DNA from: Candidatus Poribacteria bacterium
GTDB lineage: Bacteria; Poribacteria; WGA-4E; WGA-3G
Assembly (NCBI GenBank): GCA_022827625.1
Contig: JAJEIE010000024.1
Span: 1 to 40,226 of the forward strand
DNA: 40,226 nt
Reading direction: 5' to 3'
Shown: one piece after another, positions 4,401 to 12,274 of the stretch
Position numbering within the stretch: position 1 is the stretch's first letter
How the letters are laid out: each line of letters begins with the position of its first letter
Notes under the pieces: generated by a model
Databases searched by the model: none
Told to the model about the DNA's origin: nothing
The model's input: the letters and a program-made list of their open reading frames with translations, nothing else
Program-made: the position numbers and the translations under genes

Positions 4401-5321
4401 TCAGTCGGTGTGTTCCTGCAATTTCTCAAACAGATCCCGGAAAATCGCATCCCGATTGACACTCGATGCAACGCGCATAAGGTGTCGGCTGTTGTCAAAA
4501 CTCCATGTCGCTGCTTCTGTCAAGATGGGGCTGTGGACGATTTCTGTCGGCACCCACGATGGATTGACGAGATATGCCGTTGCAGATATATCCCAGATTA
4601 CCTTTGACCAAGCGTAGTGATCGCTTGAATAGTCTTTAAAGATCTCGACGAGATAATCTCCGATTTTACCTCTTCCTTGCACATACCGTTCCATCTCTGC
4701 AACCGTTGTGTGCAGATGTGAGACAACGCCGCGCGCCGGAAGCCAAACGAACGGCACCCCGCAATCCAAGACGACTTGGGCACTGACAAGGTCTTGCATG
4801 AGGTTGAACTCGCGGGTGTGGGGCCAGTACAACGGATTTCCGCCAAGCCAGATAACGACAATTCGTTTAATGATTTCGGGTTCTATGAGGATCGCAGCGG
4901 CGACATTTGTTATTGCGCCTACAGCGACGACATAAAGCGGTTCTTCTGTACTCGCCATTGCCCGTTCAATCAAGTCAGTCGCCGCATCGCTTGGTACGGG
5001 GGTCTCCTTGTCGGGGAGAAACGTTCTGGCACCGCGATAGACGAATCCATCGGTAGGCACATTCAGAAAATCTAAAAGCCGTATGATTTCGTCATAACTT
5101 TTCTCCATACCATCTTCGGGACTCTCTGAGCGATTGTTGTGGAAAGGGACGGCGTAGAGTGCCTCAACGTCGAGGTGTTCGGGTGAGAGCAGCGCGTGAA
5201 CGACTGCAAACTGATCGTCAATTTCGTTATAGGTGTCAGTGTCAAGCACCATCCGTACCCGTCCTGTCGGGGGTTGGAGCATCTCCAAGCGTTTCGACTC
5301 TGACAGCGTCGGAAAATTCAT
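4401..5321 (-). CDS. Inosine/uridine-preferring nucleoside hydrolase family protein
   Basis: The 306-residue protein belongs to the IUNH family, which cleaves the N-glycosidic bond of ribonucleosides using a Ca2+-bound Asp cluster. The N-terminal cluster reads DTDTYNEIDD (D27, D29, D35, D36), compared with canonical DTDPGIDD. VAVGAITNVA and a later EFNLMQD segment match the substrate and metal loop. The longer frame begins with GTG at 5366, but a TATACT box (5357-5362) lies inside that extension. The ATG at 5321, with AAGG about 11 nt upstream, is therefore preferred. The changed residues in the Asp signature mean substrate preference cannot be assumed. Confidence 0.85.
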   Translation of the reverse strand: MNFPTLSESKRLEMLQPPTGRVRMVLDTDTYNEIDDQFAVVHALLSPEHLDVEALYAVPFHNNRSESPEDGMEKSYDEIIRLLDFLNVPTDGFVYRGARTFLPDKETPVPSDAATDLIERAMASTEEPLYVVAVGAITNVAAAILIEPEIIKRIVVIWLGGNPLYWPHTREFNLMQDLVSAQVVLDCGVPFVWLPARGVVSHLHTTVAEMERYVQGRGKIGDYLVEIFKDYSSDHYAWSKVIWDISATAYLVNPSWVPTEIVHSPILTEAATWSFDNSRHLMRVASSVNRDAIFRDLFEKLQEHTD

Positions 5322-5751
5322 AAGCGGTTTTACCTTGTGAATTGAGAGTTTTCTTGAGTATAGCACGTCTGGAGAAAAATGGGAATTTATTTCTATCTGT
5401 TTTGGTGTTGAATAAGCCTATCCTGCGTGAAAACGGAGGTGAATGTAGTTTTAACTTAACGGTATATTTCTTCGTAATTTCCCCTAAAAATGTTACACCA
5501 ATGTAACATTTTGTGTGCGGTGTGTACCGTTAGAGAACCCAGTTGCCATAAGGGTTCGTTGATGTTTCGTTCTCAATTTTCTTTTGTGAAAAAAAATAAT
5601 TTGGCGGAGAGTGGAGCATTTTTTCTATTGGCAAATCAACGGTATGAATGCCTTATGGGCATTCCCCGGGCTATTAGCTGTCGGAAACCGTCGGAAACTA
5701 TTGTTTGTAGGTTGATACATTATTCGCCTCTTTGGAAAGTCTTATGATATA
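5322..5751. other. 430-bp intergenic region with several palindromes, no gene recognised
   Basis: It contains AATGTTACA/TGTAACATT (5489-5510, loop CCAA), GAACCC/GGGTTC (5535-5557) and GAATGCC/GGCATTC (5646-5664, loop TTATG). An 85-codon + strand frame at 5490-5747 crosses all three palindromes and has no recognisable domain or ribosome site, so it is not called. The right end is very AT-rich (5740-5765). A related GGAATGCC/GGCGTTCC palindrome occurs near 39475. Confidence 0.6.
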
Positions 5752-5925
5752 TTATATATTTTTACTAACTGATGTCAAGTTAAAATGGGTTATAAGTTGT
5801 GGGAAGGGGATCAATTTGGCAATAGATTTTCCGTTGCTATCCAAGATAATTTCCTCTCCTGCCACAGCGCGCTTGACCAACTGAGGCAAACTGTCTTTTG
5901 ACTGTTCATGTATATCAATATGCAT
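5752..5925 (-). CDS. Orphan Phd/YefM-type antitoxin, short
   Basis: The 57-residue protein begins MHIDIHEQSKDSLPQLV and continues VAGEEIILDSNGKSIAKLIP. This matches the Phd/YefM DNA-binding domain pattern (helix, then GEExxI...GKxxAxLxP). The frame can be extended upstream to 5982, but the family match begins at this ATG, and GATGAGAT lies about 9 nt before it. It is shorter than the usual ~80 residues, so the C-terminal toxin-binding tail is minimal. No Doc, RelE or PIN toxin is visible on either side. It is the last gene of a three-gene - strand run that starts with the SNase-like gene. Confidence 0.7.
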   Translation of the reverse strand: MHIDIHEQSKDSLPQLVKRAVAGEEIILDSNGKSIAKLIPFPQLITHFNLTSVSKNI

Positions 5926-5953
5926 TTGTCTTATCTCATCCAATTTTGCTTTT

Positions 5954-6181
5954 TTATTCACCCTCTGGAGGTAAAACTTCATCTATTCTATCAGGTGGGA
6001 ACCAGGTAGGTAGCGCTGCGAGGTGTGACTTGTTGATAGGTACTTGTAAGTTGTAACGTTCGGTGACTGAACTAACAAGGTCCAGAAGCCAATCAGGAGC
6101 GGAAGGATCGACTACTACTTCTTGGATTAGTGGATTTAGGTAGAGAAAAATATTAACGCGGAGGGTGCGACCATTTGGCAT
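5954..6181 (-). CDS. Small protein of unknown function
   Basis: This 75-residue frame (begins MPNGRTLRVN, ends IDEVLPPEGE) overlaps the SNase-like gene by 29 bp and ends 28 bp before the antitoxin start, as in an operon. I do not recognise a family. An alternative ATG at 6205 would add eight residues. Neither start has a clear Shine-Dalgarno, so translation may depend on coupling to the gene upstream. The composition is mixed polar and hydrophobic, with no signal peptide or membrane segment. Confidence 0.45.
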   Translation of the reverse strand: MPNGRTLRVNIFLYLNPLIQEVVVDPSAPDWLLDLVSSVTERYNLQVPINKSHLAALPTWFPPDRIDEVLPPEGE

Positions 6182-6545
6182 GACCACTATAGACCATAAT
6201 TGCATTTATAAACACGTGGTCTGGATATCGCCATACATCAGCAACTACGTGATCGTGAGAAATTCCTACCGGCTTGAATGTGATCTGTTTTCCCTCCAGA
6301 AATTGTTTCAGATAGCGGACAGCCTTTTCCCCTTGTGGAGTGCCAATTTCTGGGGCATTTATATTTTTTAAACGAATCTTATTAAACATATTTGGGCGGC
6401 TCAACTGTTCCAGTGGAGTTTCGGCGGGGAGGGGACCTCCTATTAGCCTTTCCATCGGAGTCTGCATCGCGGTTCTCCGGGAAATTTCAGGACTAACCTC
6501 AACCGTATCCCCATCAATGACTTTCGTTACAACATGCGTTTGCAT
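6153..6545 (-). CDS. Staphylococcal-nuclease-like (SNase/TNase) protein, probably catalytically altered
   Basis: The 130-residue protein follows the SNase OB-fold pattern. It has VTKVIDGDTVEV (metal Asp region, D11-D13), KIRLKNINAPEIGTPQG (R58 and E66, equivalent to Arg35 and Glu43 of staphylococcal nuclease), a helix AVRYLKQFLEGK, and a C-terminal FINAIMVYSGHAKW. An extra ~33-residue Pro/Arg-rich loop (about 22-54) is inserted after the first strands. The usual YGR motif carrying catalytic Arg87 is replaced by SHDHVVADVW, so phosphodiester cleavage may be weak or lost. The start is well supported: AAGGAG stands 7 nt before the ATG, and there is a promoter at 6608-6636. No signal peptide is seen, unlike secreted nucleases. 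Confidence 0.8.
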   Translation of the reverse strand: MQTHVVTKVIDGDTVEVSPEISRRTAMQTPMERLIGGPLPAETPLEQLSRPNMFNKIRLKNINAPEIGTPQGEKAVRYLKQFLEGKQITFKPVGISHDHVVADVWRYPDHVFINAIMVYSGHAKWSHPPR

Positions 6546-6684: not shown

Positions 6685-6754
6685 AGTCCCAGCGGGGCGA
6701 CAGGTCTATAGCTGCGTAATACCCCACCTCTAAAGCCCCAGCGGGGCGACATGT
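6685..6754. repeat. Two copies of a CCCAGCGGGGCGACA repeat
   Basis: The motif CCCAGCGGGGCGACA occurs near 6688 and again near 6737, about 48 bp apart. The second copy is longer at its 5' side, giving CCCC-AGC-GGGG as a stem. The repeats lie in the 255-bp gap between the TPR gene 3' end and the SNase promoter, where no gene is recognised. Confidence 0.6.
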
Positions 6755-6800: not shown

Positions 6801-8690
6801 CTAATTGTTAAGTTCTTGCAGCCGTTTTTCAATGTAGACTTTGAGATTCTCGTTTCCTTGTTGTTCTGCCAGTTCCAAGGCAGTTTGAAGATCCGATTTT
6901 GATTCATTAATCCTGTCTAAATAGGCTTTTGCTATTCCTCTATTAGCATAAGCTTCTGCATAATCAGGTTTTATGCGAATCGCTTCGGTGTAGTCGGCAA
7001 TAGCGTTGTTAAATTCTTCGCACAGAGTTCTCAAAAACGCTCTACTGTAGTAAGTTATTGCAGAATCCGGCTTTATGCGAATCGCTTCGGTATAATCAAC
7101 AAGTGCAGCATCGTACTGCCCGAGTTCTCGTTTTAGACTCCCCCGATTGTTATACGCTGCAGCGAAATTGGGTTTTATACGAATTGCTTCGGTATAATCA
7201 GTTAAGGCATCATTGTATTGCCCATGTTTTTGTTTTAAATTGCCTCTATTGTAATAGGCTTCTGCATAATCAGGTTTTATACGAATTGCTTCGGTATAGT
7301 CCATGAACGCGCCGCTATGCTGCCCGAAGCTTCCCTTAACGTCCGCCCGATTGAGATAAATTTCCGCGGAATTAAGCCCCCGCTCAATTGCTTTATCAAA
7401 ATCGTCAATCGCCTCTTGAAAGTTAGCGAGTTTCTTCTTTGTCACTCCCCTACAATAGTAAGTTTCAGGAATGTCTGGTCTCAACTCGATTGCTTTATCA
7501 AAATCATTGATAGCCTCTTGGGAATTATTAAGTTGTAGTCTTGCAGCCCCTCTGTAATAGTATGCCGCAAAATTGCTTATATCTAACGCAATTGTTTTGT
7601 CAAAGTCGTCAATCGCAACTTGGAGGTTACCCAATTGATAACTTGCTTGTCCCCTTTTATAGTAGGCTTCAGCGTCATTTGGTTTTAAATTAATTACTTT
7701 ACTAAAATCGTCAATCGCGGCTCGGTAATTACCAAGTCGGTTCTTTTCAATCCCCCTATTGTAATAAACATCAGTGTAATTTGGATTAAGCCTAATTACG
7801 CTATCAAAATCAGCGATTGCAGACTCATGTCGATCAAGCTTGGACTTCGCTATACCACGGTTGTTGAAGGCTTCAGCGTGATCAGATTTTAATGTGATGG
7901 TTTCATTAAAATCAGCAATTGCTCCTTCATAGTCTTTCAATTCAGATTTCAGGATTCCTCGATTGTAATAGGCACTAGCAAAATTGTGATTCAATTCTAT
8001 TACTTCGTTAAAGTCGGTCATTGCCTCCGCATATTGTCTAAGATCATACCTTACAATCCCTCGCTTATAAAAGGTTTCCCAAGAATCAGGTTTCAATGTG
8101 ATCGTCATGTTATAAGCGGAAATGGCTTTTTCTGTCCGGTTCCCGTGGTAAAGGAGAGAACCAATTGAAAAAAAAGCATGCGCAGCAAGTTCGTTGTCGC
8201 TCGGTTCGGGGGTGTTCGCAGTGATCTGCTTATTTTTACTTTTAGTTTCTATCGGTGCTTCTTCTGCTAATTCTGGAAACAACTCTGTTAGTTTCGGAAC
8301 GTAGGCATCTTCATAGTTGTCAATAAGCCGCGTAACGAATTCCATCAGTGGTGCCAACGGATGATTCTCATTTTCACCGATCGAAAAGATTAGTTTTTCT
8401 AATATCTCATCCAACCACTGATATTCATCTTCGGTCAATTTGATGGTACCGTAATGTCCGTGCCGTTTCCTGAAATCGATTAATCCGTCTAATACCTCTA
8501 CTAACCATTGGTAGGCACTTTCCGGATAGTTCGGGACCCCAACGGTAGACGATACTTGAATCTGTACCTGAATTTGTATCAGTTCAGAACTCTCTGATAA
8601 TTGAGAGGGAGTCAGCGTTAAATCGGGGACAGCAAGATCCGAATCCAAAATTGCTGATACATTAAACTCAGGTTGTGTTTGCATCAACAT
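6801..8690 (-). CDS. TPR-repeat protein with HigA-like antitoxin N-terminus
   Basis: The 629-residue protein has about 13 tandem 34-residue tetratricopeptide repeats from residue ~168 to ~605 (pattern AEAYYNRG...A..DYTEAIRIKPD). Repeats 9-12 share EAIRIKPD, and their DNA recurs every 102 bp, so they expanded recently. There is no signal peptide or membrane segment. Residues 84-135 (IKLTEDEYQWLDEILEKL ... LIDNYEDAYVP) resemble the N-terminal domain of HigA antitoxins that partner PF09907 toxins (IKTEEEY...LIEDYE..YP). The usual HTH is absent; the TPR array takes its place. The gene starts 12 bp after the HigB-type toxin stop, with AGAGG 6 nt before the ATG, so it sits where the antitoxin should be. 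A bystander TPR protein remains the alternative. Confidence 0.85.
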   Translation of the reverse strand: MLMQTQPEFNVSAILDSDLAVPDLTLTPSQLSESSELIQIQVQIQVSSTVGVPNYPESAYQWLVEVLDGLIDFRKRHGHYGTIKLTEDEYQWLDEILEKLIFSIGENENHPLAPLMEFVTRLIDNYEDAYVPKLTELFPELAEEAPIETKSKNKQITANTPEPSDNELAAHAFFSIGSLLYHGNRTEKAISAYNMTITLKPDSWETFYKRGIVRYDLRQYAEAMTDFNEVIELNHNFASAYYNRGILKSELKDYEGAIADFNETITLKSDHAEAFNNRGIAKSKLDRHESAIADFDSVIRLNPNYTDVYYNRGIEKNRLGNYRAAIDDFSKVINLKPNDAEAYYKRGQASYQLGNLQVAIDDFDKTIALDISNFAAYYYRGAARLQLNNSQEAINDFDKAIELRPDIPETYYCRGVTKKKLANFQEAIDDFDKAIERGLNSAEIYLNRADVKGSFGQHSGAFMDYTEAIRIKPDYAEAYYNRGNLKQKHGQYNDALTDYTEAIRIKPNFAAAYNNRGSLKRELGQYDAALVDYTEAIRIKPDSAITYYSRAFLRTLCEEFNNAIADYTEAIRIKPDYAEAYANRGIAKAYLDRINESKSDLQTALELAEQQGNENLKVYIEKRLQELNN

Positions 8691-8702
8691 AATTTACCTC
8701 TT

Positions 8703-9020
8703 CTATCTCCGTTTACTATACTCGGCATGTGTTTCTACCTTTAAGATAATGACACGTTGTGCTTTATATCGCACGAATGCAGTAAGACGCGCTTTGTTAC
8801 CACCAATGTTAAAGACTGTTGATGTTATTTCTTCACCCGGTTGTCCGAAATCTTCTGCCGGAACTTTCACCGGAGAAGCGCGGGGAAACATTGCCCGCAA
8901 ATCTTCAAGAGATTTAAAACTCCCTTGCTCTATCAGATTATACCACCGATTAAGTGCGGATCTGGTATTTGGATGTCTCTGGGCAAATTTGTTCAGTTTT
9001 TCTACGCCTGTAATACGCAT
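8703..9020 (-). CDS. higB: HigB-type toxin (PF09907-like)
   Basis: This 105-residue protein matches the HigB toxin family of ribosome-associated mRNA interferases with a RelE fold. The visible landmarks are MRITGVEKLNKFAQRHP, LNRWYNLIEQGSFKSLEDL, VFNIGGNKARLTAFV (from 69) and a C-terminal THAEY (97-101). The protein stops four residues after HAEY, slightly shorter than many members. Its own promoter lies at 9073-9101 and the downstream TPR protein follows after 12 bp. Toxin-first order is normal for HigBA. No conventional HTH antitoxin is present nearby. The ribosome site is weak (AAGGCGG about 14 nt upstream), consistent with low toxin expression. Confidence 0.85.
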   Translation of the reverse strand: MRITGVEKLNKFAQRHPNTRSALNRWYNLIEQGSFKSLEDLRAMFPRASPVKVPAEDFGQPGEEITSTVFNIGGNKARLTAFVRYKAQRVIILKVETHAEYSKRR

Positions 9021-9072
9021 TTGTGAGAAAGATCCGCCTTTTAGTCAGGCATGTCAGGTTGTTCGCCTAATT

Positions 9073-9101
9073 AGTATACCATACAAAAACTCAGCGGTCA
9101 A
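9073..9101 (-). promoter_or_regulatory. Promoter of the HigB-TPR operon
   Basis: Read on the - strand: TTGACC (9096-9101), a 17-bp spacer and TATACT (9073-9078), about 55 bp upstream of the toxin ATG. No conspicuous operator palindrome overlaps it, which fits an antitoxin lacking an HTH. Confidence 0.65.
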
Positions 9102-9128: not shown

Positions 9129-12100
9129 CTATGCCTCCGCACCAATCTCCAACCCCGACAATCGTTCAACAATCCCCACCGTCTCCAAGCTTACACCGAC
9201 AACCTTCCCAATCAAATCCACAATATACGTCTCAGCATCCGCGCGATTTGGGTCGTTTACGATACCGCTCCGTTTATCCGTCTTCACGCGATATTGATCT
9301 ACTACCCACTCCAACGCCGAACGATTGCCTAACTGATACTGAAACGCCTCCGCAGGAATCCCGTCTAATGTCAGAAAATCGTTGTATTTTATCTGTGTTT
9401 TGTCTTTGGAGAACCGCATCTGTGCTACACGCCAATCCAGTGACCTCCCCTCAGTTTCAATCAGATTGAGTTTATATTCTGGTTGATCTTCATAGTGGAC
9501 ATGAATCTCCGCTAACCGTTTTCCCGCTTCGACAAACTCCCAGAAGTCTTTAGCAAACGGAATATGCGGCAAGTCCCGCTTGAGGTTCGCCTGATAGTGT
9601 TCGCGATATGTGGGATGATGTAAGAGTGCGTAGATATAATGGAAAATGTTCCATTTGGTAATATTCGCGTCTTTGTAATGCGCTTGGAACTGTGCTAATG
9701 CCCAATCGGTAATGTTCTCGCGGCGGTTTGTGCCATCTTCATCGTAGATGTAGAACGGAAAGCATTGGTTAGCGTCAATGGTAACAAAGACAGTATGCGG
9801 AATAACATTCGTGATATAACACCAAAAATCTGTGCGTCCGCTTATATTTGGAATACAGATAGCCTGATTCTCCGATTCGGTTTCAGGTGTGGGAAAAATG
9901 GATGGAAACAGATATACGACATCATTGAAGGTTCTATCAAAGAAAATATTGCTTTTGACAAACGGACGATGGAGGCAGGTTCTCACTTTGTGTTTGTTGT
10001 ATTCAGCGATTCTACTTCCTCGCAGTTTCGCTTTTAAGTCACGACTCCAACTAATTTTTTCGTCCTCATAGGTCACAAAATCATCAACATTTGTGTTTGA
10101 TTTGTCTCTGACTCCTTTCCACTTAAACACTTCCGCATTATAGAATTCCATCATTTGTTGAACGTTTTTTGTGAGTGTGTCTTTATTGAAGTTGATTGCC
10201 CAAGCATCGCGATTCGTCTTCACGCCGCTGCTAAACTGGTGAAAAATCACACTTGCAATCTCGTCTTTCGCTGTTTTTGCTGCTTTACTCCCCATTGGCA
10301 GAAAGGTCTCAAATTCCTCGCGCAGCCCTTCGGTAAGCCATGTATGCCGAGCATCCGGTTGAATCGCTTGCCAATCGACGTTGCCGAGATGTTCACATTT
10401 GTCCAGAAATTCAAACGTTGCCTCTTTGGACATCTCCGCTGTCTCACCGTTGTAAAAAATATGAGCAGCCTCTTTATTCTCTTGGTGCTTTTTCACGAAT
10501 AGGTTAATGCTCACCCCTACCTGAATGTCAAAAACATTGGCATTGCCGGGGTGACCTTTTCGGACATTCCCTCCCAAATCCAGCAGATAGATCGTATCGC
10601 ACGCCTCAGCGAGGTGTTTCCGCATGCCATCAAACGCTTGACCGGTGATAAAGTTGTGGTTCGTCACGAACGCAACGATCCCTTCCCCTTTAATTCGATT
10701 CAATGCCCAGAGAATCGCTTTGACATAAGGATCGTAGAGTGAAGTTTTGTTGGTTGCAGTGGAGGCTTGGGCGTAGGTCTCTTGAATTTGTCTATCCAGT
10801 TCAGGATACTTACGGTTCTTATTCGCATCATTCTCATCCATCTGCCGCGCATTGTAGGGTGGGTTGCCAATCACCACAAACATCTCCGTCTGCTTCTGTC
10901 GTTCAACCCGACGGGTGTTTTCTGGGGCAAACATGGAGAGTTGACGCTCAGTTGTTAAGTCGAAGGTATCCACGAGACAGAGGTTATCAAAAGGTTGGTA
11001 TTGCTTTGTAGCGACGTAAAATTCATGCTCAATATTCATACTGGCGATGTAGTAGGGCATTAGCAACACTTCATTGCAGTGGAGTTCGTCGGTGTATTTC
11101 GCTTTGAGCGCAGTTTTGTTGAGTTCTTGGATGAGCCGCACAATGAAGTTACCGGTACCGACGAACGGGTCGATGAGGTGAACCCCTGTGTCCGAAAGTG
11201 AACGTCCAAACTCGGTTTCGAGAAGATGTGAAACGCTTTTTACCATAAAATCGACAATCGGCTGCGGCGTGTAGACGATGCCGTGTGTATCGGCGACCTT
11301 GACAGAAAACCCTTGAAAAAATTGCTCGTATACGGTGTTGAGGAAGTGTTGTTTCTGTGAGAAGTCGATGAAGGTTGCAGCAGCGCGTTCAATTGCACCG
11401 TAGAACGGATTGAGTTCTCGGAGAAACTCCGAGCGGTTATAAGCCTGCCACGTGAGGGCATCAATCACATTTTCGATTTCGCGTGCGATGATATTGCGGC
11501 GTGTAAAGTCGGGATTGTCAAAGACGGTGCGGAAAATCCGCTCTGTTAGGAGGTGTTGGATAAGCATCTCCTCTACGGCAGATTTTGAGAGGTTCGGATT
11601 AATCGCCTCTTGACAGTGGCGGTGGAAGTCCGAAAACGCCTCCTGAAACCGAGCGTTAGTCTCCTCTTCGTTTAGGATTAACGCTGCAGCGCGTTTTCCG
11701 AGTGCTGGCACTCTATCCTTGAATTCAACGACGGCACGTTCCCAATTGGCAACATCTGCTTGTTCGTAACTGAAAAAGGTGTGAAGCACCCGAATAAACG
11801 CCTCTGGGTTTGCAACGCCTACATCCATAACCGCTTGTCCATTTTGATAGAGGATGGCGCGTTCTTGCGTTGTAAAGAGAATATTGTCCTGTGGATAACC
11901 TACCTCGAATTTCTGTCTAACGGCTACGGTGAGAGTGTCGTGAAGGTCTTTTGCCTCCCAGTAGCCGCGCGGCAAGCCGAAGGTATTATCAGTGAGCATA
12001 CCATCGACGTAAATTGTGGTGTTCTGTGGTGTTCGGAGGGATTTTTCACAGATAAGCGTTAGGTTGTTTTGACGAGCGTAATGTTGGAGGAGCGTTGCAA

Positions 12101-12206
12101 AGGCGAGTCGGACTTCGGTTTCGTTTGTCGCGCCGAGGTTTTCGTATTGTTTGAGTTCGGCGTAAAAAGTTTTTATCGGCTTATGTGTCGGTTTGATATT
12201 TCGCAT
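9129..12206 (-). CDS. Single-chain type ISP-like (type IIG-like) restriction-modification enzyme
   Basis: The 1025-residue protein appears to combine cleavage, methylation and recognition. An N-terminal PD-(D/E)XK nuclease is suggested by YVDG (D68) and WEAKD (E84, K86). An N6-adenine methyltransferase follows, with GIVYTPQPIVDFMV (motif X), DPFVGTGNF (motif I, from 346) and NPPY (motif IV, 448-451). The C-terminus (AFQYQLGNRSALEWVVDQYR, then SGIVNDPN) matches the type ISP specificity domain. Type ISP enzymes such as LlaGI are ~1600 residues with a helicase between nuclease and methylase. That helicase is absent here, giving a type IIG-like layout. The start at 12206 is preferred because a -10 box overlaps the first possible ATG at 12254, and GGAG lies 11 nt before 12206. 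Confidence 0.88.
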   Translation of the reverse strand: MRNIKPTHKPIKTFYAELKQYENLGATNETEVRLAFATLLQHYARQNNLTLICEKSLRTPQNTTIYVDGMLTDNTFGLPRGYWEAKDLHDTLTVAVRQKFEVGYPQDNILFTTQERAILYQNGQAVMDVGVANPEAFIRVLHTFFSYEQADVANWERAVVEFKDRVPALGKRAAALILNEEETNARFQEAFSDFHRHCQEAINPNLSKSAVEEMLIQHLLTERIFRTVFDNPDFTRRNIIAREIENVIDALTWQAYNRSEFLRELNPFYGAIERAAATFIDFSQKQHFLNTVYEQFFQGFSVKVADTHGIVYTPQPIVDFMVKSVSHLLETEFGRSLSDTGVHLIDPFVGTGNFIVRLIQELNKTALKAKYTDELHCNEVLLMPYYIASMNIEHEFYVATKQYQPFDNLCLVDTFDLTTERQLSMFAPENTRRVERQKQTEMFVVIGNPPYNARQMDENDANKNRKYPELDRQIQETYAQASTATNKTSLYDPYVKAILWALNRIKGEGIVAFVTNHNFITGQAFDGMRKHLAEACDTIYLLDLGGNVRKGHPGNANVFDIQVGVSINLFVKKHQENKEAAHIFYNGETAEMSKEATFEFLDKCEHLGNVDWQAIQPDARHTWLTEGLREEFETFLPMGSKAAKTAKDEIASVIFHQFSSGVKTNRDAWAINFNKDTLTKNVQQMMEFYNAEVFKWKGVRDKSNTNVDDFVTYEDEKISWSRDLKAKLRGSRIAEYNKHKVRTCLHRPFVKSNIFFDRTFNDVVYLFPSIFPTPETESENQAICIPNISGRTDFWCYITNVIPHTVFVTIDANQCFPFYIYDEDGTNRRENITDWALAQFQAHYKDANITKWNIFHYIYALLHHPTYREHYQANLKRDLPHIPFAKDFWEFVEAGKRLAEIHVHYEDQPEYKLNLIETEGRSLDWRVAQMRFSKDKTQIKYNDFLTLDGIPAEAFQYQLGNRSALEWVVDQYRVKTDKRSGIVNDPNRADAETYIVDLIGKVVGVSLETVGIVERLSGLEIGAEA

Positions 12207-12245
12207 TCTTGTGTTTTCTCCGTAAATGATAAATAAATGTGAAGT

Positions 12246-12274
12246 ATTATACATGCATTCACAGTCGATTGCAA
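12246..12274 (-). promoter_or_regulatory. Promoter of the restriction-modification gene
   Basis: Read on the - strand: TTGCAA (12269-12274), 17 bp, TATAAT (12246-12251). The -10 box lies inside the longest possible reading frame, showing that translation begins at 12206. Confidence 0.7.

Follow-up and report, generated by a model that had tools for sequence, protein, structure and literature searches.

The window, by which we mean the whole stretch of 40,226 nt that was analysed, comes from Candidatus Poribacteria (GCA_022827625.1, contig JAJEIE010000024.1, positions 1-40,226), a sponge-associated organism. The genes and the promoter-like site described here all lie on its reverse strand. A 105-aa HigB-family toxin (8703..9020), recognised by PF09907, PADLOC, PDB HigB and its predicted fold, is followed by a 629-aa putative antitoxin (6801..8690) that joins a domain like the N-terminal part of HigA (HigA-N) to an array of TPRs. 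This ORF starts 12 bp past the HigB stop on the same strand, which bears out the toxin-antitoxin gene order claimed in an earlier note on this DNA. The 629-aa protein opens with a leader of about 56 aa (8523..8690) that is predicted to be disordered and evolves fast (in most pairs dN/dS is about 0.2-0.7). Next come the HigA-N-like, putatively toxin-binding domain (residues 57-144; 8259..8522), of which residues ~86-140 align to HTH-bearing HigA, and an exchangeable array of 13 repeats with Pfam TPR matches (residues 171-612; 6855..8180). A promoter-like site, TTGACC-17-TATACT with a TG (9073..9101), lies 52 bp upstream of HigB; as a mere match from a consensus scan, it is a candidate for the single promoter that the earlier note placed ahead of both genes.

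Upstream, the module is bordered by a gene for a type ISP restriction-modification (R-M) enzyme (9129..12254; PF18135 at 2.8e-102), the R-M neighbour already remarked on, and downstream by a nucleoside hydrolase gene (4401..5366; PF01156). Between the TPR gene and the hydrolase lie an SNase-like gene (6153..6545; PF00565 at the cut-off), which by synteny follows VapC in two relatives (L037, L042), and a 76-aa ORF (5752-5982). The latter houses the orphan front half (residues 1-43; 5797..5925) of a Phd-type VapB, 79% identical to the VapB of locus L200 and with its tail missing. The spacer that separates the TPR gene from the SNase-like gene holds two exact copies of CCCAGCGGGGCGAC (6688-6701 and 6737-6750); 0.14 would be expected in the window allowing 2 mismatches, and the genome has two occurrences of a 15-base version. 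In one relative (L038:4333-5917) the TPR antitoxin and the SNase-like protein form an in-frame fusion, where the window has a separate SNase-like gene.

The conserved loci of relatives have the same borders, with a type ISP R-M gene on one side of the module and a nucleoside hydrolase gene on the other. By tblastn, we recovered the R-M border in 18 and the hydrolase border in 17 of 47 long-TPR loci (a set that includes redundant copies and short flanks), and in 0/96 other HigB loci. Tandem copies of the module, and copies with a VapB-type tail but no HigB, are also found at this position.

The PF09907-like HigB proposed earlier was confirmed by a PF09907 match at 9e-20. The protein also matched the PADLOC model PD-Lambda-2_A at 1.5e-19 and, in a profile search of the PDB, the HigB proteins of E. 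coli and Shigella at 3e-13, and its predicted fold matched 5ifg_A, the HigB chain of the E. coli complex. It is probably a translation-dependent mRNase. HigB dN/dS was about 0.1-0.3 in the pairs compared and 0.08 against genomes G023 and G025, values by which the window copy is under purifying selection; it is intact and retains the positions that are nearly invariant across the family. Some HigB copies in other loci carry internal stops. No relatives were found on viral contigs. Plasmid-borne HigB relatives exist, all less than 60% identical, and the one examined, on a Synechocystis plasmid, has a 139-aa partner annotated as a transcriptional regulator.

For the N-terminal domain of the 629-aa protein no Pfam family was reported. 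Its residues 84-135 had been likened to the N-domain of HigA, and we found homology over residues ~86-140: when 43 TPR-type N-domains were compared by hhalign with 12 HTH-bearing HigAs taken from HigB neighbours, the probability was 97.6 and the E value 3.1e-12 (40% identity over 55 columns). Over most of their length the same HTH-bearing HigAs align with E. coli HigA (5ifg_B) at 2.1e-21, and only through them was the link from HigA-N to E. coli HigA obtained; against PDB sequences, an N-domain profile of three sequences gave no match and one of 68 sequences gave noise only. A Foldseek search with the predicted fold of the domain alone ranked E. coli HigA first, but at an E value of 2.1, and VIA gave Z 5.2 with unrelated entries at equal Z. 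Because the domain model alone was not significant in structure searches, the HigA homology rests on sequence. We also modelled the natural HigB + HigA-N operon with AF2, read through two in-frame stops (74 paired sequences). The pTM was 0.76 and the linker was the only stretch with pLDDT <50, which suggests that the HigB and HigA-N domains hold a fixed arrangement in this single-chain model.

No HTH family occurred among the best 25 of the 35 Pfam matches (E<=1) to the 629-aa protein, and 13 TPR units were counted, in agreement with the ~13 repeats that had been read in place of an HTH. The names that NCBIfam offers for the TPR part (MamA, TOM70 and others) were set aside as generic TPR matches, nearly all under their cut-offs. 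The earlier proposal that a DNA-binding half was swapped for a TPR scaffold stands in that the HTH is gone, TPRs take its place and linkage to HigB is conserved. HTH loss may well have come first and TPR gain later, because HTH-less HigA-N-only antitoxins (73-147 aa) are common beside HigB in several phyla.

A genome search for HigB beside HigA-N/TPR fusions found the linkage to be conserved: 54 of 72 complete TPR-type ORFs, counted after removal of one clipped duplicate, adjoin HigB, a share that is biased upward because loci were sampled mainly by HigB. HigB and the TPR-type partner are mostly 2-12 bp apart. The 18 TPR-type ORFs without an adjacent HigB count against the model of a HigB-TPR antitoxin. 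HigA-N ORFs of at least 230 aa occur in 53/59 genomes of one Poribacteria family and in 0/26 other genomes of the phylum; among the genomes searched, the TPR-type partner is confined to this family. The genome of the window itself has a second HigB locus with a 284-aa HigA-N/3-TPR partner and a third with a 104-aa HigA-N-only partner.

Across relatives we classified 148 distinct HigB-partner pairs, which fall into four kinds: HigA-N with an HTH (132-163 aa); HigA-N alone (about 73-147 aa; Poribacteria, Cyanobacteria, Chloroflexi and others, by record titles); HigA-N with 2-18 TPRs; and HigA-N with two TPRs and a C-terminal stretch, seven pairs (L053, L048, L066, L068, L156, L056 and L169). The two C-terminal stretches scanned (L053, L066) weakly match HSDR_N_2 (PD-(D/E)XK-like) at 1e-4, under the Pfam cut-off. 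L156 adjoins a methylase-restriction gene. HTH-less HigA-N-only ORFs of 73-89 aa lie directly 3' of HigB in Cyanobacteria and other phyla (L071, L078, L080, L093, L099, L109 and others), and their overlap with the HigB gene is frequent. Since an HTH-less HigA-N alone appears to serve beside HigB elsewhere, the TPRs would not be needed for neutralisation. In the TPR types, pairwise distances correlated at r 0.79 for HigB and HigA-N, 0.63 for HigB and the array, and 0.62 for HigA-N and the array. In a permutation test 0/2000 values were as high, and shared ancestry adds to all three correlations.

TPR repeat number ranges from 2 to 18 across relatives. Between near-identical loci, identity is 98-100% in the flanks, HigB and HigA-N but about 60% in the TPR core. 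L150 and L151, from genomes G009 and G001, are such a pair. The two share 98.3% DNA identity over 1793 bp that span the upstream region, HigB, HigA-N and roughly the first TPR, and 94.6% over 2.2 kb downstream, starting near the last TPR. In the array core, windowed identity is about 53-68% in a forced alignment, and the best match per repeat averages 63%. The L149 array is 74-95% identical to that of L150 repeat by repeat, and the L151 array is collinear with that of L154 (82.6%); because each array type recurs in another genome, both are real. We rejected assembly error as the source of the swap, since each array is embedded in a long contig and turns up again in another genome. Sharp borders within 98-100% identical DNA, together with this recurrence, argue for exchange and not slippage, and by these alignments the TPR array is replaced as a cassette between near-identical loci. 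Six other TPR genes of G009 and G001, picked by equal ORF length (a choice that favours conserved arrays), are 81-94% identical, nearly collinear and free of such a swap. Between the window and G025, HigB is 95%, HigA-N 86% and the repeats 49-84% identical; at the level of these identities, the window thus shows the same contrast less strongly. No positive selection on the array was detected, pairwise dN/dS being 0.14-0.27 and thus <1.

Some relatives of the 629-aa protein have a second antitoxin part, which, like the VapB remnant in the window, goes beyond the earlier note. A VapB-type C-terminal tail of about 37 residues was found in 18 relatives (17 complete TPR-type ORFs and the contig-clipped L199). 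The key to this assignment is locus L200. It encodes a VapB of 80 aa whose front half is of the Phd type and whose gene overlaps its own VapC by 4 bp, and the tails of the TPR proteins are 73-90% identical to its tail where aligned. In six relatives (L036, L037, L039, L042, L125 and L199) the gene for a VapC of 125-126 aa begins within the stop codon of the TPR gene (4-bp overlap), and the tails of these six are 73-86% identical to the L200 VapB; the L036 VapC matches PF01850 at 1.3e-15. In known VapBC systems the VapB tail binds the toxin. We infer that the tailed relatives with VapC act as double antitoxins, neutralising both toxins. For some VapBs, the last 30 residues have been linked to cross-talk (PMC7354431). 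Because the HTH is gone from the HigA part and the Phd front from the VapB part, both merged antitoxins in these chimeras are, by homology, without their DNA-binding halves, and their putative toxin-binding parts are kept. The window protein has no VapB tail, and no VapC was matched in its genome at an E 1e-12 cut-off; the VapB front half downstream is the sole such match in that genome.

Further tailed proteins, consisting of HigA-N, 3-4 TPRs and a VapB tail, have neither HigB nor VapC adjacent (L220-L223, L225, L038, L040 and L130), and several tailed proteins of this sort sit inside the same locus. In the same family, most VapC genes of loci L205-L217 come after an ORF of about 226-313 aa with a VapB-type tail at its end (..EDFDxELPDFKEYM). 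One of these ORFs, scanned in part, gave DUF2281 (0.0024) only and no Phd domain.

The usual picture of a type II antitoxin is of two parts, one that binds the toxin and one that binds DNA, and the HTH of an ordinary HigA lets it repress its own operon. The HigBA systems of E. coli K-12 and Shigella (PDB 5IFG, 6KML, 5YCL) share with the window the PF09907 toxin family, the toxin-first order and a homologous HigA N-domain, but their COG5499-type HigA ends in an HTH, whereas the window protein has 13 TPRs and no HTH. PD-lambda-2 is alike in that its model PD-Lambda-2_A matches HigB and in that a HigA-like antitoxin is fused to an extra domain; it differs in retaining the HTH, in fusing it to a peptidase and in requiring a third gene (PMC9519451), none of which applies to the window. 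TAC systems also combine a HigB-like toxin with an antitoxin that has an extra regulatory region, but their operon includes a SecB-like chaperone gene. No such gene was seen at the window locus, where the downstream ORFs are the SNase-like gene, an 83-aa ORF without a Pfam match and the Phd-like half. To VapBC systems with a Phd-type VapB the likeness lies in the relatives, 18 of which have the tail and six of which adjoin a PIN-domain VapC. These proteins lack the DNA-binding half of VapB and bear its tail on HigA-N/TPR instead, and the window has neither tail nor VapC. In the open-access literature searched we found no description of a swappable TPR-array antitoxin or of a two-toxin antitoxin, which does not prove their absence.

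On balance, we lean towards a toxin-antitoxin module of the HigB type whose antitoxin is non-canonical, in which HigA-N holds HigB and the TPR array senses a ligand and frees the toxin. The array standing where the HTH was would most likely bind a protein ligand, and binding would loosen the grip of HigA-N or destabilise the antitoxin, so that HigB is released. Exchange of the array with retention of HigB and HigA-N in relatives would fit a part that sets specificity. It is rather unlikely, by comparison, that the protein is an ordinary HigB antitoxin whose array does no sensing but stabilises, multimerises or tethers it and drifts by repeat recombination. Such a passive array would sit well with the variation from 2 to 18 repeats, the dN/dS below 1 and the short TPR-less antitoxins of relatives. 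TPR genes abound in these genomes, two of which gave 150 scored matches each, so the array could have accreted by chance. The swap has sharp borders in 98-100% identical DNA, however, and each array type is found again in another genome; six TPR genes of the same length in the same genomes lack such a swap; and conservation in 53/59 genomes also speaks against passive drift.

We regard two other explanations as improbable. The TPR part might recruit a chaperone or protease, and antitoxin stability might be under the control of that factor, much as it is under that of the SecB-like chaperone in TAC systems. The frequent use of TPRs as docking modules favours this idea, as does the added chaperone-addiction region of TAC antitoxins (PMC9519451). 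Yet no chaperone gene was seen beside the window locus or among the downstream ORFs listed for relatives, and if the ligand were a conserved chaperone, one would not expect the array to be exchanged wholesale. Alternatively, the locus may be decaying, with HigB and the VapB half as relics and the TPR protein turned to a new function that has nothing to do with controlling toxins. The orphan VapB half in a genome without a VapC match at the 1e-12 cut-off, the 18 TPR-type ORFs lacking HigB and the internal stops in some HigB copies elsewhere would all be expected from decay; an intact window HigB with a dN/dS of 0.08 against G023 and G025 and its nearly invariant positions kept would not, nor would the widespread pairing with HigB.

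For the sensor-type module itself, a role in phage defence is suggested by analogy, because an R-M gene is adjacent, HigB occurs in PD-lambda-2 and the array is exchanged; HigB-bearing PD-lambda-2 protects E. coli against phage (PMC9519451). In those relatives that end in a VapB neutralising tail and adjoin a VapC, one protein could hold two unrelated RNase toxins. A broader reading, which we put forward tentatively, is that the family has a sensor-type antitoxin hub: with a HigA part at the front and, in relatives, a VapB part at the end, both stripped of their DNA-binding halves, it may control two RNase toxins through an array exchanged to follow changing ligands, for example phage proteins.

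In the window protein the DNA-binding part of the antitoxin, and in relatives that of both merged antitoxins, is gone, and an exchangeable, putatively protein-binding array stands in its place. This makes it testable whether a toxin-antitoxin pair can be turned into a sensor with swappable specificity. The tailed relatives may also offer a natural example of one protein with neutralising parts for two different toxins.
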